From assembly GCA_018398765.1 (NCBI GenBank), contig JAHBMJ010000790.1:1-33688 (forward strand): a DNA stretch of 33,688 nt, given 5' to 3'. The stretch is from Chromera velia (lineage: Eukaryota > Sar > Chromeraceae). Shown in pieces: positions 4,445 through 32,700 of this stretch. A program made the translations under genes and the position numbers. The notes under the pieces were generated by a model. It did not search any database and was not told the origin of the DNA. It saw only the letters and a program-made list of their open reading frames with translations. Position 1 is the stretch's first letter; each line of letters begins with the position of its first letter.

Positions 4445-7095
4445 TCAAGGCCCCCAGAATCTCATCACATCCTCCAGGGACTCTGCAGGTTTCAGAACGC
4501 CCACGTTCACCTTCAGGGCGTTGAATGCCGACCCCCCCGGTCCCCCCCCCGTCTTCAGACGAGTGAAGCCAATCACGGGGGGAGCAGGGCGGCTGCAGTG
4601 TCTTGAGAACATGCTGATCGAGTTCGCACCTGCATCCAGGACTACTGCAAAGTCCCCGCTCTGCACCTCGTACGGCAACGAGATGCGCTTCTTGAGTACG
4701 TCTCCTGCAAAACACAGCGGCCCCGCAAGGCTGTATGTGTGCACACGGCGGGATCTTCCGGGGGATGCAGGCTCGGCAGGATCCCCCTCTACCCCTACCC
4801 TTTTCTCTCCTCTGGAGGAGTAGAATGCACAGCGGATGGGGAACTTATCGGGACAGTAGGAGGGTCGGAGGAAGAGGTCTGCTCCGACGTGGAGCACCAA
4901 AGTGCCGTCAAATCGGTCAGTCTCGGGAATAGGAACCGATGCGACGGTTTCAATTCCTCCTGTCGTGTCTGTGGTGTGTGCGGGTTCTCTGTTGGTGGGG
5001 CTTCTTGAAGCAGTGGAGGCACCGTCTGTGGGGGGTTTCATCAGGGCTGCGGGTTTTCGATACTCGATCTGACTCACAACAAACGCGGTCTTCCCAACGA
5101 TTGCGTGTCCAAACTCAGTGAAGACGGTGCGGGATGCTGAGGAGAAAAGAGACGGGGCACGCTCTCTCAACGAGTTTGCATACTCCAAAAACGTGGGACC
5201 CCAAGACGTGCTCTGGGTGTCAATCGGCAACCCCCCCCCGATATCCAGAGCCTTCACGAACGGAGCTTCTCCTCTTGGGACCTCCGTGTGAGACGGAGGG
5301 AAGAGGGCGAAAAACGGTTTCAATCGGGCCACTGTGGCCTGCTCTCCTGCACTGAAATCAAGAACGACTCTATCAACCTCCTCTGCCAATTCTGCTATGG
5401 CTGCTGCCCCATCTGCAAGGTGATGGACAGACATACCCCGAGACCCCACATGACAATGAAGGGCTCTCAGCCAGGGGTAGGTGACAAAAGCCGCAAGAAC
5501 GGCTTGTCTGTTGTGGGGGGTCAGGGGGACCCCGAACTTAGAGTCAATGGTGCTCACGGAGAGGGCCTCAATGGCACCGGACCCGACAAGCGGATTTACG
5601 CGCAGACCTACCAGGCCAGGCTGAAATCCTGCGTTTTGGGTCTGACAGAGTTCGACTGCTTCGTCGATTCTCTGCAACTCCTCGAAGCTATCGGCATTGA
5701 TGTACACTTTCCGGGACACTGCAGCGTAAATGTCCTCTGCAGTCTTGCAAGGTGAGTCGAAAATGATGCGCGGGGGGGGGCACCCGATGTTCATCGCTTG
5801 CATAACCTCTCCCCATGAGGCGCACTCACAGCCAACACCAGCTGCAGTGACCTCACGAAGCACACAGCTGAGAGGCGCGGCCTTGATTGCAAAGGCATGT
5901 GCGAAATGGGGGGGGAATGCCGAGACGAGGGCGCGGAGGTTCGCACGGAGTGCATCGAAATCATACACCACTGCATGAGAGAGCCCCATGGTTGTGGTCC
6001 TCCCTCCCCCCTGCCCCCAACCCGAGGGCCCCCCTGCAAGCGTCTGTGCCTCCCTTCCCAGCAACACCCCCGTCCGCAGAAGTTTCTGAAGCACGGGCTC
6101 GATTGCCTCTTCACAGAGACGACCGACCTCGTCACCCCCCCTCTGAATTGCTTCCTGCATGACTGCGAGGACATCAGAAGTACTCGGAGGAGCAAGAGGC
6201 GGTGTGAGGGGTTTGGGCCATCCCTGACCGGCAGAAGTTTGGCTGCTGTTGGCTCTGTGGAGTCCGGCCCCGTTGTCATACTGAGCAGGCTGTGCGTAGG
6301 AAGAGGAGGAGGATCCCCCCATGTATCCCCCAGACACACCAAGGTAGTGGTCGTTGTGAGAGACGGCGGACATCCCCCCAGTCACCCTCGAAGGGCCGGG
6401 GTACAGGGGGGCGGAGGGCCAGGGGTAAGGCTCACCTCCAGCCACGCCCCCCTGGTTCCCCGACACGGACCGCGTTCGGGCCTCGAGGGCCGGGCCCAGG
6501 ACCGGGGTGCCGACAGCGGCCGGTCCCGTAAAGCCGGTCGTTCGGTGTCCCCAGCCTGTGTCGCTTGTTGCGAGGTGGGGGGAGAAGGCCGGATCCTGAA
6601 AAGAGAAAGGGACGAAGAGGGAGAAAAAAAGAGACTATGAACAGGTTTGCAGGCTTCAAAAGGCAACAGAGAAGTGCGGTGCTGTCGAGAAGGAGGCATG
6701 TAAGTGAAAAGAAAAAGAGGAGACTGACAGACTGACTGACAGGTGCATGCTGCTGCATCTGCATCGCAGGTCCTGCCGTCTGCAGAGGAGAAGCGTGGAC
6801 AGCGGCAGAGGCAGAGGCAGAAGCTGCCCCCTCAGCAGGCTGCTGTTGCTGCTGTGCCACAGCCCCGAACATGTTGAGGGGCACAGCGTGGGGGGGGGGC
6901 GGGGAGCTTGCTGTGTGCGTCTGCCCCTGCTGCGGGGGGCGAGATACCAGAGGGAAGACTGGCTGCTGGGGATCAGCCTTGAGGGCCTCTGGACGGCCTG
7001 CAGACTGCTGGTGGGTAGTCTCCTGCTTTGCCTTCTCCTCTGTCTCGTGCTGGACCGCCTTCTGCGCAGGTTTCGGAGATGCAGTCAGAGAATAC
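4445..7095 (-). CDS. Fold-type III PLP-dependent decarboxylase-like module (DapDC/ODC superfamily), probable C-terminal half of a fusion
   Basis: Two exons: 7095..6741 (Q/A/P-rich linker) and 6595..4445 (TGA stop at 4447..4445). The join is phase 0 between a GTCAGT donor and a TTTTCAG acceptor. Residue numbers are for the 1566-aa fusion model. The barrel Lys is in AFAIKAAP (K1088); then CECASWGE, IIFDSPCKTAED, a SKFG motif, HCHVGS (1230-1235), DIGGG (about 1301-1305), and GPLCFAGD with the active-site Cys at about 1478. These are the landmarks of diaminopimelate/ornithine decarboxylase enzymes, PLP-dependent with an alanine racemase-like barrel. Two landmarks differ: the usual EPGR reads EFGH and the usual GAY reads GAN. 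Substrate therefore cannot be assigned; lysine or polyamine synthesis, or a divergent subfamily such as Y4yA-like, are options. There is no in-frame ATG at the 5' end: the linker frame runs up to an acceptor (TTTCTGCAG) at 7096, with a TAG just beyond. An internal Met in NMFGAV is the only obvious alternative start for a stand-alone gene. Confidence 0.8.
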
Positions 7096-7596
7096 CTGCA
7101 GAAACGCAAACGAAGCAGCTAGGCAGCAAGGGGGGGGAGAGGGACGAAACCGAAAGGCTGAGAGCAACTCTTCTGCGCTGTACTTGTGTAACAGCAGGAA
7201 AGCAGTCTTATTCCTCTTCCCTTTCTCTGCGCACGCCCTTCTTTCAGCCTGATGATACAGCAGAAAGAAAGACAGATCCCTCTTGCCGCGAGGGAATATT
7301 CATTCACCCATTAGAATGCCAAACAAGCACAGCAGAGAACGAGACCCTCCGACTACAGGCAGGCAGAAAGGCAGGTAGCACACAGGTGTGGGCAAAAGGG
7401 AGGGGGAAGAATGCCCTCACAGTGACCTCTCTGTGTGTGTGTGTGGGGGGGGGGGGTGTCCACCATGTCCTTTCTTCAACGAACTGCAAAAGCAATCCTG
7501 CGTCCCTCCCTGTCTATCTGCTGTCTGTGCGCGAGAGAGCACGGTCAGACCCCGCACTTATTCCCTTCTGACCAACAAACCCACCCACCGACTCAC
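7096..7596 (-). other. Candidate intron joining the two PLP modules
   Basis: Read on the minus strand, this 501-base stretch begins GTGAGT, directly after TG of the last Trp codon of the fold-type I enzyme. It ends in a pyrimidine-rich tract and TTTCTGCAG. Splicing it out completes TGG and enters the Q-rich linker frame in phase. If it is instead intergenic, the downstream decarboxylase lacks an obvious start codon. It contains CA/poly-C microsatellite near 7431-7457 and no convincing exon of its own. Confidence 0.55.
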
Positions 7597-10047
7597 CAGT
7601 ATTTACAGATCATCACCAGCTTGTCGAGTATCATTTCGTCTTCTGCGAGGAGAGCCTCGACGCGGGCCCGCACACCTGCATCATCGAGCAACCCGTCAGA
7701 CCCACGCTTTCCGGGGACCGCAGTCTCATCACACCCGGAGGGGCCCAGGAAATCATCCTCAAGGGCCCCAAACGCCTTGTTCACCATGTCTGCCCCCAAC
7801 GCGAGCCGAATCACACCACAATTTGACTCCCCCAACGCCACAGGCTGTCCCACCATCACCTGCAAACCCGCCACGGTTCTCTCACGGTCACTCCACCCAC
7901 TTGTCACTCCCTCTTCGTTCTTCTCTAAAAGAACGCCTAGATCCTGACCTAGCATTTTATGTACTTTCTTCAGATCGGCAGTCCCAAGGACTTTGTGAGG
8001 GAGGCCCTCAGGACCGCAATCCCTGGGCACCACACGAACGAGAAGGGACAAAATCGTGTTCTGACTTCCCAAACGAGTGCATGCTTCGAACCCGTCCTTG
8101 GGTGGGATCAAGGCACTCATCAATGGCCACCTTTCTGCAGCCAGTGAGAGCACACCCTGCATCCACTGGGTGATCATCAAATCCATTCGGGGCGCGGGAA
8201 CCCGAGCAAATGCCTCCATCTCAGCCAGCGCGGCCTCTACTCTCACCAGCAGGCCTGCGTTGCAGTGGGGGGGTAGCTGTTTTCGGACAGCGCTCAACTC
8301 AACAGGCACCTCAAAACGACCAAAGTAATCACCCATCCCCAAGGGCATCACTGGCTCTCCATCTTTTCTTCCGACCCCACCCGAATACTGCAGTGCTTCT
8401 TTGAGGCTTGGGGGGAAAACCGCGGCTGCTGAAAAGGGGGGGCCGCAAAAGAACTTGGAGCCCGTGATCAGACAGGGGCAGCCGAGTTGGAGAAATTCAG
8501 TCAGACCCCCCTTTGGCAGACGCATTTGGCAAGCGTCCACCACACACAGAAATTGTTCTCCGTGCTTCTTTTGCAGACGCTCAACGAGATCCATAGACGG
8601 ATAACAGAGCCCCGTTTTGGATCCGAGAACTACATGCAACAACACCACTTTCGCCTTCCTCCCCTCTAATGTTTCTTTCACAGTTGTCTCAATATCGTCC
8701 TCATTCGGTTCAAACGAACCGATTTTCGCACGGGGGGCGAAGCACTCGACCCTAACCGAACAGAGGTCAGACTCTCCAACACCCCTGATGGGCTCCCCGA
8801 CTTTTTGGGTCCCTCCTGCAGGGGCGAAGGCAGAGAAGTGACGAAGCCCGCTCGCGTTGGCGGTTCCACTTCCCACCTCCCCCGCCGCTGTCACAATTGA
8901 GACTACCTGAGTCTCCGTCTGAAGGTGACGGAACTTTTGATCGGCAATGGCTAGAGCGCAGACGGTCGGCCACATTTCTGCATCTGTGCCGGAGGGGCAG
9001 AGAATGACACTGAGACCCTCCTTGGCCATGGCGTCGAGACCGATGGCATGGGTGAGGCGGGATCGAACTTCGCACATCTCTTGGTCGAATTGCTCTGCCA
9101 AAATTCGGTCACTTGGGACCTTCTGGGCAGAGGGGCTGCTGGTATTTGAGAGGAGGGAAGCCATTGTCTTGACACGGCGGCGCTCTGCTGCTGTGAAAGT
9201 TTCGATGTGGGCGTTGGATGAGGTGCACGAAGACCGGGCTCGCAGCCCTGGGAGCGGCACTGTTGAGGTGAAGTACTTGTTCAGCTTTCCGTTCTCAGGG
9301 AAAACCATGCAACGGTCGTCACTGCAGACAGAGTGAGCACAAGGTGGAAGGGGAGGTAAGTATATCCATAAATAAGTGTAGCCTAGGAGGCAAAAGGCTG
9401 AGACAGACAGGAAGAGGGAGGTGACGTGCGCAGAAAAGATGTCCGGCTATAGTCTGAAAGTGGTGAAAGGTCGCGCGGAAGTAGTTTGAGAGATATGGAA
9501 AGAATGAGAGACGCTGGGCCTGTCACGGCAATTGAGTCTCACAAAGAAGAGAGACGGGGGGGAGGGCGGTGGCTTACCCTCCCTGAGTCATGAGAGTCTC
9601 CGTCCTTTGCACAAAGGGGAGTGCAGGGAGAGCACGGGTGATCACGGCAGCCTGAACCTCCTGAGGGATCCCCGCCAGACCACAGACCTCCTCAGGGCTT
9701 ATGGCAGCCCCCCCGTCTCTCTCCCTCAGAACAGCAGTTGTCTCTCTCTGAGCGGCCTCAGAAGAGATGGCAAAACGCTGTAGTTCCTCAACTGTGAATG
9801 TTCGAAGGTATGAAAGCCTGAGGTGGATGACAAGGAACTCGACCAGCTCTTTGGAGGCATCAGAAACTTCCTTCTCGATGCACAGACGGTCAAGAGCGGA
9901 TCCCAGGGCAACTCCCTTCCTCACACATGTGAGGTCTCCCTCTAGGAGCGCTGGGTCAACGGAATCAGCGCCATGCTTCCGATACAGAGGGAAGAGCTCA
10001 GGCCTCTGTTTGAAGACCTTGACCTCAAGGCTCCCCGATGTGGGCAT
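7593..10047 (-). CDS. Fold-type I PLP-dependent enzyme (aminotransferase class V-like), probable N-terminal half of a fusion
   Basis: Two exons: 10047..9578 (ATG, protein starts MPTSGSLEV) and 9321 to either 7593 (TGA stop, 732 aa) or 7597 (splice donor). Exon 1 ends in GGTAAG, exon 2 follows CTGTCTGCAG, and the phases agree. Residues 1-156 form a helical N-terminal region of unknown function. The catalytic part has NKYFTSTVPLP and SSCTSS (about 171-192), PSGTDAE (266-272, cofactor-binding turn), VVDACQ (about 417-422, the Asp expected to contact the pyridine ring) and TGSKFFCGPPF with the Schiff-base Lys at about 446. This order is that of the cysteine-desulfurase/kynureninase-like superfamily. 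The precise reaction is not identifiable. No signal peptide is seen. The final codon TGG and stop TGA overlap a strong donor (TG, then GTGAGT at 7596), so the frame may not end here. Confidence 0.8.
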
Positions 10048-12320: not shown

Positions 12321-12382
<62 letters not shown>

Positions 12383-13628
12383 ACTCGTTTGTTTCTTTTG
12401 TTCCTGCAGTTGGTCACGTCAACGCAGCCCTTCTGTTTGGACTCTCTGAATCGGTTCGGTCTGCTCTGAGCTCGGACAGCCTTCTGCCGGGACAGCTAGT
12501 CTCGATGCTCTGGTGGGTTTGCATTGGTGGATGGATGGATGGATGGATGGGAAGATGGATGTTCTAATGTGGTGTTAGGCAGACCTTGACACAGAGGTGG
12601 TCTACGCGCTAATGAGCAGCCTTATGACTGCTTTTCCTCTTTCTTTTTTTTTTCGTCGTTTCTTCGAAGCTCTTTCTCGGGCAGCCGTCCCATGTTCTTT
12701 CTACCTCTGCTTGAATTCATATTTTTTTTGCTCCTCAAGAAGGGACCAAATGAAGTGACCGTGTTCACACCTGCTGCGCCTCAGGTCTCTGACACAACTG
12801 GGGCTGGCCCCCTCCCCTCTTCTCTCAGAAGCTCTGTCCAAGGTTGCAAGGGAGGTGGAGAAGTACTCTCCTCGTGACTTGGCGGAGCTCTTGTGGGTTT
12901 GTGCTGCTGCCGAAGGGTGCTCGTACGCGACCTTCAGGTCCCTTCTGCGACATGCTGTGAAGACGATGGTGAAGAAGGACAGTGAGGGGAGGTCCGTTGT
13001 GGTTGCAGGGGCACAAGAGCTGTCAGTCGCTGTATGGGCTTCTGCAGTGGCAGGTGTGAGAGATGAAGAGTCGTTGAAGACTCTCTCTTGCGCTCTTGCG
13101 GCAGTGCTCGTTCAGAGCGAGGAAGATTTAGAGGACGCGAAATTCATCGTTGAGTCCGAAAAATCTCTTGACAGGGGCTCATCTGCTTCCGGAGGTGGGG
13201 CGTCGGGGGTGATTCTCCCTGACGACATTTCGGACGTCCGTGAGAGGATTAGGCTTCGTCGGCAGCTTGTGCGGGAAGAGGCAGCGGAGAAACGGCTACA
13301 GGAGGCCATGGGGGGTACCTCCAACAAAAAGACAAAAGGGAGAGGACAGACCGGGATAGGAGATGAAGGGGAGGACGAGGAGGTAGTGGACTTTTCGCCT
13401 GAGAAATGGTCATTGGGGGTTCGGGGCATTGCCAACATGCTTTGGGGTTTTTCTGTTTTAAACTTTGTTCAACCCGAACTTTTCCGTCTGGCAATCTCCA
13501 AACTGCGTCGCATGGGCGGGGGCGGAGAGGATGGGCTCCTCAGGGCTACAGAGGGAGAAGGTGAGGAGAGGAGGGAGCGTGAGAGGGAAGAGCTGATTTG
13601 TTTTCCCTTCAGTTGTTTGGGTTCGTTT

Positions 13629-13720
<92 letters not shown>

Positions 13721-13724
13721 TNCC

Positions 13725-13756
<32 letters not shown>

Positions 13757-15002
13757 ACTCGTTTGTTTCTTTTGTTCCTGCAGTTGGTCACGTCAACGCA
13801 GCCCTTCTGTTTGGACTCTCTGAATCGGTTCGGTCTGCTCTGAGCTCGGACAGCCTTCTGCCGGGACAGCTAGTCTCGATGCTCTGGTGGGTTTGCATTG
13901 GTGGATGGATGGATGGATGGATGGGAAGATGGATGTTCTAATGTGGTGTTAGGCAGACCTTGACACAGAGGTGGTCTACGCGCTAATGAGCAGCCTTATG
14001 ACTGCTTTTCCTCTTTCTTTTTTTTTTCGTCGTTTCTTCGAAGCTCTTTCTCGGGCAGCCGTCCCATGTTCTTTCTACCTCTGCTTGAATTCATATTTTT
14101 TTTGCTCCTCAAGAAGGGACCAAATGAAGTGACCGTGTTCACACCTGCTGCGCCTCAGGTCTCTGACACAACTGGGGCTGGCCCCCTCCCCTCTTCTCTC
14201 AGAAGCTCTGTCCAAGGTTGCAAGGGAGGTGGAGAAGTACTCTCCTCGTGACTTGGCGGAGCTCTTGTGGGTTTGTGCTGCTGCCGAAGGGTGCTCGTAC
14301 GCGACCTTCAGGTCCCTTCTGCGACATGCTGTGAAGACGATGGTGAAGAAGGACAGTGAGGGGAGGTCCGTTGTGGTTGCAGGGGCACAAGAGCTGTCAG
14401 TCGCTGTATGGGCTTCTGCAGTGGCAGGTGTGAGAGATGAAGAGTCGTTGAAGACTCTCTCTTGCGCTCTTGCGGCAGTGCTCGTTCAGAGCGAGGAAGA
14501 TTTAGAGGACGCGAAATTCATCGTTGAGTCCGAAAAATCTCTTGACAGGGGCTCATCTGCTTCCGGAGGTGGGGCGTCGGGGGTGATTCTCCCTGACGAC
14601 ATTTCGGACGTCCGTGAGAGGATTAGGCTTCGTCGGCAGCTTGTGCGGGAAGAGGCAGCGGAGAAACGGCTACAGGAGGCCATGGGGGGTACCTCCAACA
14701 AAAAGACAAAAGGGAGAGGACAGACCGGGATAGGAGATGAAGGGGAGGACGAGGAGGTAGTGGACTTTTCGCCTGAGAAATGGTCATTGGGGGTTCGGGG
14801 CATTGCCAACATGCTTTGGGGTTTTTCTGTTTTAAACTTTGTTCAACCCGAACTTTTCCGTCTGGCAATCTCCAAACTGCGTCGCATGGGCGGGGGCGGA
14901 GAGGATGGGCTCCTCAGGGCTACAGAGGGAGAAGGTGAGGAGAGGAGGGAGCGTGAGAGGGAAGAGCTGATTTGTTTTCCCTTCAGTTGTTTGGGTTCGT
15001 TT

Positions 15003-15042
<40 letters not shown>

Positions 15043-26991: not shown

Positions 26992-28357
26992 CGTTCCTTT
27001 CTGACCCGCCGATAAATCTACTGATCGAAACAAAATTTCACTCTGTGTTTGTTGATGAATCAAGAAGGACCCGGAGAAGCAGCTGTAGATCAAATACAAG
27101 ATCAAGAAGGGAGCAGAGATACTTAAAATTAAAGGCCTTCGACTCCACGAAGGATCGTGTGTGTGTCTTCCACAATCAGATAGGCTTCGATGGTTTCAGA
27201 GAGGCCCACTGACTTTGTGGCTGGATGTTTTTTTCAACACTTTCTTCAGTCGATCGAACCTTTCTTTCTTGAGCACTCCGGTGGACGATTCAAAGCCTCA
27301 GTCGGTCACTGCACTCCTTGCAGAATACACCTACGTACGCAGGACCTGTTCGAGTTCCGGTCTCAGCCAGTTCCTTTGAAAAACTGTTCGGCCAGACATG
27401 GCAGAGGACTCAGTGAGAGAAAAGGGTGGAATTTCAGTTCTTGCAGCGGCGCGGCATGGCGCGGCTGCATGCAAGCTGCATGCAACTGCAATTGAGGCGC
27501 GGCGCATGGCGGCGCCGCGGCGGCGCGCCTGCGCATATATATATATATATCTATCTGACGCACTCCGTGCGAATGGCCCGGAAAGCGAAATTTATTCTTG
27601 TTGCCCCTGCTTTAAATTTGGAAAGTGCCTCCTCAGCTGAATTGTCTTTCCGGGGCCGAGCTTGGCGTGCGTTCAGATCTTCCTGTAAACGTCGGACGCA
27701 GCCACCCGTGTGGTCTGGGGGGGTGCAATTTTTGTTAAGTGCCCTCTCAGCTTCGCTTTCCGGGCCATATATAGATACGACCATATGCGCGCGGCCGCGT
27801 GCAAGAGAATGCGCGGCGCCGCGATGGCTTCCAGCTCGTGGATGATCGACCCGAGTGGGGGATCAAGCCAGCTAGGTCCCTTGCGAGACATGTGCCTGTA
27901 CGAAAGATTTCGTGAGGAGGAATGGAGAATTTTTTAACTTTGACGTTCACTGGCATGAAACATTTTCCCCTTTATTTCTGTCCGCGGCGGTAATGCTCAA
28001 GCCGTCTCCTAATTACGCCGTCTCTCCGTCTCCCTGTTCTGAGAGTCCGCATCAGCGGGTGCACGCAGGCGCTTTAGGTCGTCCCTTCGCAAGGAGCCTC
28101 TCAAAGGGTAGTACAGGGGCAACAGTACGAAGAAGTCTTCTTCGACGGGATTTGCAAGGTCCCAGAGAGAACAGTATATAAAGCACAACGGCGGAAACAC
28201 TCAAGCGCACCTCCACGCTCGTCTCGACTCTGTTCTGAGGGGATTTGTGCAAAGGTGTCTCTCTTCGATTGGAAACATCTGATGCCCATGCCAATCTGAT
28301 TGCCCTTGATTGTATTTCCGACTCGGCGCAAGGAAGAAAGAAGCAGAGCGCTGAACA
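26992..28357. other. Divergent intergenic region between unknown gene and tilS-like gene
   Basis: Should contain the promoters of both flanking genes. It includes the GC-rich inverted-repeat element described separately. No open frame here shows a recognisable protein. Confidence 0.45.
27430..27850. mobile_element. GC-rich inverted-repeat element with AT alternation
   Basis: GGCCCGGAAAGCGAA at 27575-27589 recurs inverted at 27752-27766. Outside these arms both sides carry AT-alternating stretches (TATATATCTATC on the left, ATATATAGATA on the right) and then GGCGCCGCG-type GC blocks. Related phrases (GTGCCTCCTCAGCTGAATTG and GTGCCCTCTCAGCTTCG) lie between the arms. This layout resembles a foldback repeat; no coding capacity seen. 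Confidence 0.4.
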
Positions 28358-29727
28358 ATGCAAACAACAAATCGACATACTCTCTTATTAGACGTGGCTT
28401 CCTCTCATACTCCAACCCCATCCCGCCGTTTGACGTTTTCTCTGTTTCTGAGTCTGCTGCCCCTCGCACTCGCGGATCCCCCTAGCAGTTGTCCGTCTTC
28501 TTTTCTCATCGGGCGTTCCGATTCCCTTCGCAGCAGACGGGAGAGAGATGGATCCTCTCCTTCTATCAGGCGTTGGGGGAGGAAGCGACGAAGCGGCGTG
28601 GGGGTAGCAGCCCGAAGGCCAGCAAAGGAGGAAAACACCGGGTTATCGCCAGGTTCTGCTCTGGAAACACACGTCAGAAACAAACTGGAGAGGCTCTTGG
28701 ACGACCGCGGGGAGGGGGGTCGGAAGCAGAGCTGTCATTTGTGGATTCTTTGCAGTGGTGGGGTCGACTCCTCTGCACTCCTTCACCTCCTTGCTCGAGC
28801 CGTACGTTCTCCCCCCTCCCTTTCATGCATTCAGCTTCACGTGTTGCACTTCGACCACCGCCTGCGCACCACCTCGGCCCTCGACGCCGCACATGCCGAG
28901 AGCGTTGCTTCGTTCTACAGCGTCCCTTTCAAAAAGTTCGTCGCGCAGCCTGGGGACCTCTCTGGAGTTCTTTGCGATCAGGAATCGAGGGGTGGGACAG
29001 AAGGCATAAATGCAGAAGAAAGAAAAAGCGGTCGATCTCCCTCGATTCAAAACGCTGCACGAAGATGGAGGTACGGCAAGACTCAGTACTTCATCCGAGA
29101 GTGGTCCAAAGAGAAAGAGGAGGAGAGGGGCATCCTCACAAAGGGCGGTCGAGCTCAGACAGAGGACACACGGGCACCAGATACTGAGTTACTGAGAATC
29201 TGGGGGAACCAAAGAGAAGAGAAGTGCAAAGAGAACTCGGGCAGCAGTTTCTCCTCAGCAGCAGAGCCCCACCATGGCCATGAGCATCACCTGGTTGTCA
29301 CAGCCCACCACCAGGACGACCAGACAGAGTCGTTTTGGATGAAACTGCTCAGGGGAGCGCATGTCACCAATCTTCGGTGCGTACGTTGAGGCAGTTGTGT
29401 GGGAATGGGGAACGAAGAAGAAGACATTTGGAGTGAGAGAGTGCGGCACGTACATATACATACATACGCAGAGAGGTGCACAGAAAGGTGTTGACACACA
29501 GAGATACAGACTTTACAGCGGGGAGAAGGGGAAGAGAAGGAACGGAAGAAGAGAAATGAAGCAGGGGGCAGGAACGAGTGGGGGAAAGGGGGTGAGAGAA
29601 AAAGGGAAGGGGAGCTGGTTAGAAACGGAAGAAGAAGAAAAGAAATGAAGAAGCAGAGAAGGACAGAAGAAAGCAAAGAGGGAGGGGAGAGTCCAGAGGG
29701 AAAAACAATATAGCTCTCGCTCTCGCT

Positions 29728-29771
<44 letters not shown>

Positions 29772-32700
29772 CTGTGTGTACGTGTGCGTGCAGGGGTATG
29801 GAAGAGATCACTCGCATGAATGTGATGGAAGAAGAAGAAGAGACGGACGTCCCCTCACCAGAACATCAACAAGCATCCCTCAGCGGCACGAATCAGCAGT
29901 CAGGTGCCGGAGCCCCTCTCTGCATCTGGAGACCTCTCCTCGACATCCCCAAGTCCGACCTCGTTGAGTACATGCAAGTGAGTGAATGAGTGAGTGAGTG
30001 AGAGAGTGATTAGGTCAAAGAGGTGCATGAAAGAATGAAAGAGGGGAGGCGCGAGAGACGATCGTTCAGACGACTGCAACTGGGCCGTGTTGTTTTTTTC
30101 TTCCTGGCTCACGGACAACGGCAATCGATTTGTACGGCCCTCTGCTGGCATTCCCTCTCCCTGTGGGTTGCCCTACTTTTCCTTACTCGCTCTGTCCTCC
30201 TTTCCTTTCCTTTCTCTTCTCTTATGCTGAAGTAGACGGCATTCATCTGATTTTCGTCCACGTTTTTTCTTTTCTTTTTTCCTTTTTGTGCAGGGCCGAG
30301 GTCTCTCTTGGTGTGAAGATTCGTCGAACGCTGATGCCTCCAAGTACACCCGCAATAGGGTCAGACTGGAACTTGTCCCGCTGTTGGAATCCCTTATGCC
30401 TCAACAGTCTGTCGGAATAAGAAGAAACGCTCAGCGGGGGGGAAAAGAGGAAAAGAAGGAAGCCGAGCGTCTTCGAGAATTCATTCGACGGTTCGAGCGC
30501 CAGACTTCAGCGCTCCGTTCTCTGGTTGAAACTCAGACAGACGAATTCTTCTCGCGTCTTCAGAGGGACCTCTCTCGAGGTCCTTCTTCTTCTTCTTCTG
30601 CCATTGAGGCTGGCCTTGGTTTCGCAGACACCCCTCCTGAGGGAATGAGACCTCCACAGGGCTGCTGGATGCCGCTGGCACCTTGGAGAGATCTGCCGGA
30701 AGCTGTTCGAATGGTTGGTAGCCTGTTCTTTTCTTTTCTTTTCTTTTTCTGCCGTTGCACTCCGTGGCTTCTTGTCTTGGTCTTTTGTGGCCTGGGACAT
30801 AGTGATTTCCTGGGGACGCAGAAAATTTGGCTGTCCATTTTTGGAGGCGTACTGCTTGTGTTTTCATTGTGCCCCTGCGTTCATTCACTTTGTTTTCCTT
30901 CTCTCCGGCTCGCTTTCTCACAGTCCAGCACACTTCTGCTTTCCTCCTTTTTCTTCTTCTGCAATTTCTTTCGGATGTCCGCAGGAGGCTCTGTACAGAT
31001 TCATCAGAGCACCTGTAGAGCCTCGTTCCCTTCTGTTGCATGAGTGGCAACAAGGGGAGACCCAGGAAGCCCGACCCCCAGCCCTCGACTTTGGCCGTCT
31101 GGAGTCCCTTGACGAGACCCTGCACAGACTTTCTGACGCACGCGGGAGTGGAGAAAAGAAAGTCTGGGGACAGGACGTGGGAGGGGGGTGGAGACTGGAG
31201 TGTTGGGGTGGGGGCAAGGTCGCCGTGATGCGAAAAAAGATGGTGGGGACAGGGTATCAACACAAGGGAGATAAGAGCCGGAAAGGAAAAGACAAGACAG
31301 ACGCTTATGAGCCTCTGGCGCTACAACACAGTTTCGAATATCCGGGAGGTGGAAGGTTGGAGCTGTGCAGTGGGAAGGGATTGAAAATTGAAGGCATTGA
31401 ATGGTGTGTGGGTAGGTCGCAGAGTTCTTCTTCGTGTCCCTGTATGTGAAATGGTTGCAGATTCCCGTTTCTGCTGCATCTCTGTCTCGATTTCTCTTGC
31501 ATTTCTCCTCCCCTCTCTTCTCCTCCCCTCTCTTCTCCTCTCCTTCGCTTCATCTGCTTTCCGGCCCCGTTTTCTTGAGATATGAAGTCATTCTACCGGC
31601 TCCCTCGCGTATTTTCTGCCTTCTGTCACCTTCTCTTTCTGCCGGCCTATTGCCTTTCTCTTTCCCCGTCTCTGTCTCTGCCTGTGCCTGTGTCTCTCTC
31701 ATCTCTCTCCCATTGCACCTCTCTACCCTGCCTGAATGCATCTTTCCGCGTCTGCCTGTCTCTCCAGTCGAACGTCACGAGGGTTTCTTTCTCATTCCCT
31801 GTTTTTTCAATGCTCTTGTGCGTAAGTTTACAGCGGTGGGCAGGGGTCAAGCGTGCTTGCACGTCTGGCCCCCTCGCTGCCGATTGTGGTTTGTATGTCA
31901 GTATCACGCCCTTCGCTGCTGATTGTCTCCGTGGCTGTCTTTGGAGCCCCTTTCTAGCGCTACGATAAGACATTCCACATGAAAAGTGGGCCCTGCTTCG
32001 TTTGTGTGCAGGGAGGGGGTTCTCTCCAAGGGAGAGAGAGGAAGAGCGAGTCGCTTCGAGGACGAGGGCGTCAGCCTTCAACAGCCTTTGTTGATGGCAG
32101 ACTTCACTCTGCCAGAGGACTTGATTACATCTCTAAGTGGACAGTTTGAGGGAGACGGGAAGGAACGGGCAGACAGATGTATTCGTCTTGGGGTTCGTTT
32201 GAGACGAGACGGGGATCGGTGCAGTGTATCTTCTCTTGACGGAGACTGGAAGAAGATTGTGTCGTCGAGGTCTGGAGATCGTCTTTTCAGGTGGGTTTGT
32301 TGGTATTTATTTGGAGACACTTGGTGTGATGTTTCCCTGCATGGATAGACGGTGCGCTTTTGGGGAGAGGAATCCTTTTGCAACCCTCACCAATTGTCTC
32401 TTGGCCTCTTTCCCTCCTTCGTCTGCGTATCGTTTCTTCTCTCATTCAACATGCCGTCTCGCAGCGAACCACCCCTTCGTGTTTGTCTATATTGCCATCC
32501 GGTTGCAATCAGTTTCTCCGCATTTCCTTGAGTCTCTCTGCGTGAATTGGGGTCCATGCGTTGTCTGTGGGGAAGAGTGTTTGAATTGTGCTTCTCTCTT
32601 TCTCCTTTCCTCCTTGTGCGACAGGCCGGCAGACTCTCTGCGGAACCCGCCACCGCCTGGCAGGAACACAGGGCAGCAGACTTTTCGTGAGAAGAAGTTC

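Follow-up and report, generated by a model that had tools for sequence, protein, structure and literature searches.

Several described enzymes resemble parts of the protein considered here. In the diaminopimelate decarboxylase LysA, the glutamate that follows the active-site cysteine (CESGD) binds diaminopimelate by its second amino group, and in the cysteine desulfurases NifS and SufS, a catalytic cysteine is carried on a mobile loop. The archaeal-type cysteate synthase is a fold type II enzyme, and the enzymes of family PF00282, CSAD and GADL1 among them, act on L-amino acids. A review mentions the archaeal type of cysteate synthase and CapA in Bacteroidota (PMC10191378), and a diatom metabolic model (PMC7990286) assumes that cysteate arises through a 2-aminoacrylate sulfotransferase step. 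We analyzed a 33,688-nt stretch of the Chromera velia genome (contig JAHBMJ010000790.1, or C789, of a 177.8 Mb assembly; hereafter, the window), the minus strand of which encodes a protein with two pyridoxal 5'-phosphate (PLP) modules, a fold-type I head (FTI) followed by a fold-type III head (FTIII). Below, P numbers denote protein homologues, L numbers denote bacterial FTI loci, and C numbers denote Chromera contigs.

Structure of the two-headed gene

When joined, the four exons proposed in the initial annotation of this DNA (Table 1) yield 4701 nt, i.e., 1566 codons and a stop codon in an unbroken frame, and all three introns have GT...AG borders. Intron 2, which lies between the two heads, splits a Trp codon, TG/G (positions 7598 and 7597, then 7095). 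The unspliced frame reads Trp followed by TGA (7595..7593), whereas the spliced frame reads Trp-Tyr-Ser-Leu; the proposal that this apparent stop overlaps a splice donor, with an acceptor 501 bases downstream in the required phase, agrees with the sequence. Between the TAG at 7121..7119 in the linker frame and the acceptor there is no ATG, also as described initially. The public protein P0236 (UniRef/EukProt, Chromera velia) is identical to the spliced product across all 1566 residues. It should be noted that P0236 is a gene model rather than a cDNA, and that its public name, "Orn/DAP/Arg decarboxylase 2 N-terminal domain-containing protein", refers to the decarboxylase half only. The sequence across two of the joins also agrees with relatives beyond what chance would give: the exon 1/2 join rebuilds a GGDDR motif (first Asp in 80 of 82 rows of the FTI alignment, Arg in 82 of 82), and a W-x-x-L pattern continues beyond the junction between exons 2 and 3 in 11 of the 14 rows shown, the window and the unfused P0001 among them (18 proteins were tried in this comparison and 4 were left out because the motif missed them).

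The two halves could alternatively be neighboring genes misjoined by the gene model, with FTI ending at the TGA and the decarboxylase starting on its own; the unspliced frame does stop there, translation of a separate decarboxylase could in principle begin at one of the ATGs within exons 3 and 4, and P0236 is itself a model. We consider such a misjoining very unlikely and disfavor it, given the W-x-x-L pattern across the junction in relatives and at least 36 homologues fused in the same order, of which P0018 carries a transcriptome (MMETSP) name that breaks off at "Ochr". Two of the protein searches would include an FTI or FTIII protein (approximately 400-1280 aa) encoded apart in Chromera, and no near-identical one was present among the matches listed, the top identities being 35% and 44%. 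The joining of both PLP modules in a single polypeptide, which the initial annotation had suggested, is borne out by the gene model and by homology.

Table 1. Features of the two-headed gene and selected residues of its heads (window coordinates).
Feature	Position	Strand	Basis
Exon 1: N-terminal FTI portion with the start codon	9578..10047	-	GT donor at 9577; identical to P0236
Intron 1: 256 nt, GT...AG	9322..9577	-	
Exon 2: catalytic core of FTI	7597..9321	-	Identity to P0236; relatives; fold of relative P0050
Intron 2: 501 nt, separates the two heads; donor overlaps apparent TGA	7096..7596	-	Missing from P0236
Exon 3: Trp-Tyr-Ser-Leu junction and Q/P-rich linker	6741..7095	-	Splicing; junction conservation
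Intron 3: 145 nt, GT...AG	6596..6740	-	
Exon 4: remaining linker, FTIII decarboxylase-like head, stop	4445..6595	-	
Presumed PLP Schiff-base Lys of FTI, K446 (TGSK)	8454..8456	-	Lys in 82/82 rows; role by motif
Presumed PLP-ring Asp of FTI, D419 (VVDACQ)	8535..8537	-	Asp in 82/82 rows; role by motif
Second invariant Lys of FTI, K392 (SKTG)	8616..8618	-	Lys in 82/82 rows
Presumed PLP Lys of FTIII, K1088	5882..5884	-	Lys in 53/56 rows; lost in 3 Saprolegniales
Phe1479 of FTIII (GPLC-F-AGD), at the LysA Glu position	4709..4711	-	Phe in 50/50 non-Saprolegniales rows with a letter

Recurrent fusion and pairing of the heads

Three protein searches yielded, with P0236 excluded, 57 long homologues (851-1499 aa); two of these searches gave the best 120 of 434 and the best 120 of 767 matches, and the counts are lower bounds. 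Both heads are present in at least 37 of the 57, 36 of them in the FTI-FTIII order and one, P0108, in the reversed order. At least 18 contain FTI only, joined to a PF00282 domain in 16 proteins and to an asparagine synthase in two, and at least 2 contain FTIII only. The search for the same domain order, which had been suggested for other lineages, recovered at least 36 FTI-FTIII fusions. Oomycetes and other protists share the architecture, with Aphanomyces, Saprolegnia, Achlya, Pythium, Lagenidium, Phytophthora and Albugo among the named carriers. The architecture had been described as matching no standard enzyme. It is not private to Chromera. Neither the fusion nor the FTI family was described in the titles and abstract openings found in our literature search, in which subscription journals were mostly not covered.

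In bacteria and archaea, the scan of genome_contigs identified 426 stretches that encode an FTI relative. The best 80 were analyzed, Acetobacteraceae being frequent among them. A codon-based gene caller read 79 of these loci and missed FTI in L071, so neighbors are counted out of 79; in L071, an earlier and cruder gene call placed a frame of the PF00282 cluster upstream of FTI. An FTIII relative is the next gene on the same strand in six loci (L001, L002, L024, L028, L076 and L077), and a PF00282-type gene lies within four genes of FTI in 16, upstream or downstream depending on the locus. Two of the six FTIII partners (L077 and L024) and six of the 16 PF00282 partners were tested with Pfam, the others being assigned by clustering. 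An exact 4-nt overlap with FTI is found for 7 of the 22 partner genes; in Rhizobium tumorigenes, FTI overlaps a PF00282 decarboxylase gene by 1 nt. Among actinobacteria at large, FTI was detected in 2 of 396 genomes, one being the search centre itself and the other L103, where a partner gene was absent according to the gene caller, with gene names judged by eye. A viral origin was considered and rejected: ten stretches in viral_contigs matched a pattern, but none of them proved to be a relative.

Partner types are mixed in the phylogeny. In a quick FTI tree of 82 selected rows, L024 and L028, whose partner is FTIII, fall inside a 37-row clade (starred support of 100) that is mostly PF00282-partnered; L001/L002 and L076/L077 lie outside it, as do P0242 and P0243, which are PF00282-FTI fusions, as are others within that clade. 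The reversed fusion P0108 stands beside a stand-alone FTI (starred support of 99). These placements suggest exchange of partners and more than one fusion event, and the occurrence of different decarboxylases next to the same FTI suggests that they act on the FTI product in the same way; the simplest inference from these sequences is that exchanged partners would perform the same job. The initial idea that the fusion couples two PLP reactions is strengthened by the at least 36 same-order fusions, the reversed one and the six gene pairs, and we infer that the two heads would catalyze successive steps on one substrate.

In Acetobacteraceae, a histidine-phosphatase-type gene often follows FTI (L015, L026, L057 and others; tested in L053), with 27 neighbor counts among the 79 loci.

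The fold-type III head

A DapDC/ODC-like second head had been expected, and the window FTIII indeed matches PF02784 and PF00278 above their cut-offs and has the barrel fold of fold-type III decarboxylases. It retains the presumed PLP lysine of the LysA type (K1088), the second His of HxHxGS (H1232) and the GGG loop (G1303), and an Arg in an FLR motif is kept in 53 of the 54 FTIII rows with a letter, the remaining one, from Saprolegniales, having Thr. The substrate pocket is altered: the Glu of CESGD is present in the three LysA rows from PDB shown, whereas the window has Phe. Against the curated lysA model TIGR01048, the window FTIII scores 154.3 bits, below the cut-off of 297.9, and the paired bacterial FTIII genes score 192-253 bits. 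Of the five bacterial genomes searched that have an FTI-FTIII pair, four contain another gene above 297.9 bits, and the fifth has a partial match of 296.4 bits. Chromera has two further FTIII-like loci: C2973, with lysA-like exons, and C51, with an ODC-like ending. Because of the low score, the Glu to Phe change and the separate lysA-like genes, FTIII is, as judged from sequence, a LysA paralogue distinct from the lysine enzyme.

The same observations bear on a lysine-pathway enzyme, in which FTI would make or adjust diaminopimelate and FTIII would be the diaminopimelate decarboxylase. LysA is the nearest relative of FTIII in sequence and fold, as such an enzyme would have it; however, the score below the lysA cut-off, the changed pocket, and lysA-like genes located apart in the five bacterial genomes searched and at C2973 in Chromera make this extremely unlikely, and we rejected it.

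In three Saprolegniales proteins (P0003, P0005 and P0007), the FTIII head is devoid of the PLP Lys, the His and other residues; judging by these losses, it looks dead, as a retained pseudo-decarboxylase would. Other contexts of FTIII relatives were observed as well: in P0185 (Triparma strigata), one is fused to an isochorismatase-type domain (PF00857), and in P0138 and P0176, an N-terminal part of approximately 430 residues has no FTI match.

The fold-type I head

FTI folds like the class V enzymes of fold type I. In the Foldseek ranking, a PF00282 enzyme (6eei) was first and a carbon-sulfoxide lyase third. No match at the PF00266 gathering score was found in the window FTI frames or in the FTI of L043, L097 and L100, and the window frames had no trusted match to a Pfam or NCBIfam family. 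Cysteine occurs in more than half of the 82 FTI rows at three columns (56, 61 and 56 rows) and is invariant at none; at the C-terminal Cys-rich column, the window has Val. A catalytic Cys of the cysteine desulfurase kind is therefore not indicated. The initial view of FTI as aminotransferase/desulfurase-like holds for the class-V-like fold, but is supported neither by a trusted family match nor by an invariant desulfurase-type Cys. In the Chromera genome, FTI matches a single locus, the one described here.

A possible route to taurine and its alternatives

A link to sulfite was found in Phytoactinopolyspora, in which FTI overlaps a gene for CysH, the 3'-phosphoadenosine-5'-phosphosulfate/adenosine-5'-phosphosulfate reductase, in three of four loci (tested in L030, assigned by clustering in the others). 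CysH releases sulfite. PF01507 matches number three in each of the genomes with this overlap and two in the remaining genome, where no CysH adjoins FTI; the three matches are read as one CysD-like and two CysH-like genes, i.e., as an extra CysH. Two of the four cases, L095 and L093, were inspected, and in both the other CysH gene adjoins sulfite reductase; in L095 it is also beside a tetrapyrrole methylase gene. Use of sulfite by FTI is suggested by an extra CysH that has no adjoining sulfite reductase. FTI is preceded by a gene for a TauE/SafE-family permease in two loci of Parabeggiatoa (tested in L001, assigned by clustering in L002). The FTIII pocket, which keeps the Arg and loses the amine-binding Glu, would suit a small acidic substrate such as cysteate.

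On this basis, FTI would join sulfite to a three-carbon amino-acid (alanine) skeleton, the candidate donors being serine, phosphoserine, O-acetylserine or cysteine, to give cysteate; FTIII would then decarboxylate cysteate to taurine, so that both heads would act in sequence within one polypeptide. We regard such a two-step enzyme, with substrates predicted from gene context and pocket residues, as the best single reading and give it a probability of roughly 0.4. A wider proposal is more doubtful, and we make it tentatively: FTI may represent a new class of cysteate-forming PLP enzymes shared by bacteria, algae and other protists. The Chromera protein would then be a self-contained, two-headed taurine synthase, and bacteria would assemble the same two steps from FTI and exchangeable decarboxylases that belong to three or more kinds, unrelated or distant. 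Gluconobacter presumably contains a taurine lipid. Taurine-ornithine lipids (PMC12493201, PMC10191378) were considered as a reason for the presence of FTI in acetic acid bacteria.

Numerous observations weigh against the taurine route. CysH is found beside FTI in one genus only, and TauE/SafE is a broad family. By the gene caller, 57 of the 79 loci have neither partner within four genes. PF00282 partners comprise two or more kinds: the one in L043 most resembles tryptophan/DOPA-type decarboxylases, CSAD and GADL1 ranking lower, and that in L030 is nearest to sphingosine-1-phosphate lyase and then MfnA rather than to a decarboxylase of acidic amino acids; pieces of a PF00282 gene also occur elsewhere in the Chromera genome. 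The loss of the FTIII lysine in the three Saprolegniales means that FTI can persist without that activity. In the FTI tree, the Chromera head belongs to no starred set; in the FTIII tree, Chromera is on a long branch, again in no starred set, and the fused rows do not form one clade, so that these trees do not trace the fusions of Chromera and of oomycetes to one origin. Other gene contexts are not predicted by taurine synthesis. On rhizobial plasmids (L096 and L111 (pSMED03), L098), FTI is located at the end of giant nonribosomal peptide synthetase (NRPS) or NRPS/polyketide synthase (PKS) genes: it has a 4-nt overlap with a giant NRPS gene in Sinorhizobium medicae and comes after an NRPS/PKS gene in Rhizobium jaguaris. 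In Neorhizobium, FTI follows genes for a D-aminopeptidase and a D-alanine aminotransferase, and in P0241 and P0250, an asparagine synthase stands ahead of an intact-looking FTI in one protein. An epimerase-like/ATP-grasp gene is near FTI in five actinobacterial loci (tested in L028 and L030). The ATP-grasp companions are a hint only: matches are stronger in L028 and L030, weak in L038 (R2K, 18.9 of 26.3 bits) and L097 (Synapsin_C, 20.6 of 22.5 bits), and none was obtained in L011 and L078.

Because of the NRPS, D-amino-acid, asparagine-synthase and epimerase/ATP-grasp contexts, the FTI family may be wider in function, producing beta-substituted or D-amino acids, and the use of sulfite would be one case among these. 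FTI could be a class V amino-acid racemase or epimerase, the resulting D-amino acid being decarboxylated by FTIII; this is unlikely, as it leaves the extra CysH beside FTI unexplained and is at odds with the use of L-amino acids by the PF00282 partners and with the Phe that replaces the Glu holding a second amino group. That Phe, which FTIII has instead of an acidic residue for a distal amino group in all 50 rows, and the CysH neighbor likewise argue against FTI being a beta-substituted-alanine synthase with another nucleophile, e.g., ammonia, which would give 2,3-diaminopropionate and, through the partner, ethylenediamine. Such a synthase would fit the asparagine-synthase-FTI fusions, which could supply ammonia, and the NRPS neighbors, NRPS genes often needing unusual amino acids; we rate it no higher than the racemase. 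In a shared pathway of reverse order, the decarboxylase would act first and FTI would work on the amine. The location of the PF00282 gene on either side of FTI and the FTIII-first arrangement of P0108 are compatible with that order; however, an NRPS-adjacent FTI suggests that an amino-acid building block is made, and FTI is retained where FTIII looks dead, so that we consider the reverse order improbable. Cysteate formation by FTI followed by decarboxylation to taurine remains our preferred reading.

Other features of the window

Positions 12349-13668 are repeated without a mismatch, in direct orientation, at 13723-15042 (1320 bases per copy); one N, at 13722, separates the copies, and the arrangement resembles an assembly artefact. 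On the plus strand, 28355-29389 and 30231-31043 correspond to a PP-loop ATP_bind_3 match (59.6 bits; the second piece is weak and below the cut-off). These pieces are probably an intron-split gene for a TilS-like tRNA lysidine synthetase, judging by the SGGVDS motif.

Implications and comparison with known systems

The FTI family is encoded in 426 bacterial and archaeal stretches and is present in many protist proteins, yet the frames tested had no trusted Pfam or NCBIfam match. Its recurrent fusion or pairing with unrelated PLP decarboxylases leads to a sharp and testable prediction of a two-step pathway. If FTI uses sulfite, it would provide the gene behind a cysteate step of the type assumed in the diatom model (PMC7990286), and organosulfonate production would link oomycetes, algae and bacteria. 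Even with another substrate, this is a two-headed PLP architecture whose public entry is named after the decarboxylase half alone.

Compared to the class V fold-type I enzymes (NifS/SufS, the cystine C-S lyase C-DES and alanine-glyoxylate aminotransferase), FTI is without a PF00266 match and without an invariant Cys; it has its own motifs (GGDDR, PSGTDAE, SKTG and GQPV) and an additional N-terminal helical region. The window FTIII differs from LysA in the Phe that replaces the CESGD Glu, in its score below the cut-off and in its fusion to FTI; in bacteria, the genomes that encode its counterparts have a lysA-like gene besides. The bifunctional aspartate kinase/diaminopimelate decarboxylase (NF006515) likewise combines a LysA-like domain with a second enzyme; however, the partner in the window fusion is another one, and the match is 77.3 of 802 bits. 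The reaction proposed for the second head is like that of CSAD and GADL1, and bacterial FTI pairs with relatives of these PF00282 enzymes, whereas the window decarboxylase is of fold type III; moreover, the two PF00282 partners compared with PDB entries are nearer to the tryptophan/DOPA-type decarboxylases or to sphingosine-1-phosphate lyase. With the archaeal-type cysteate synthase, FTI would share the product, cysteate made from sulfite, but it would arrive at this product with a fold of type I.

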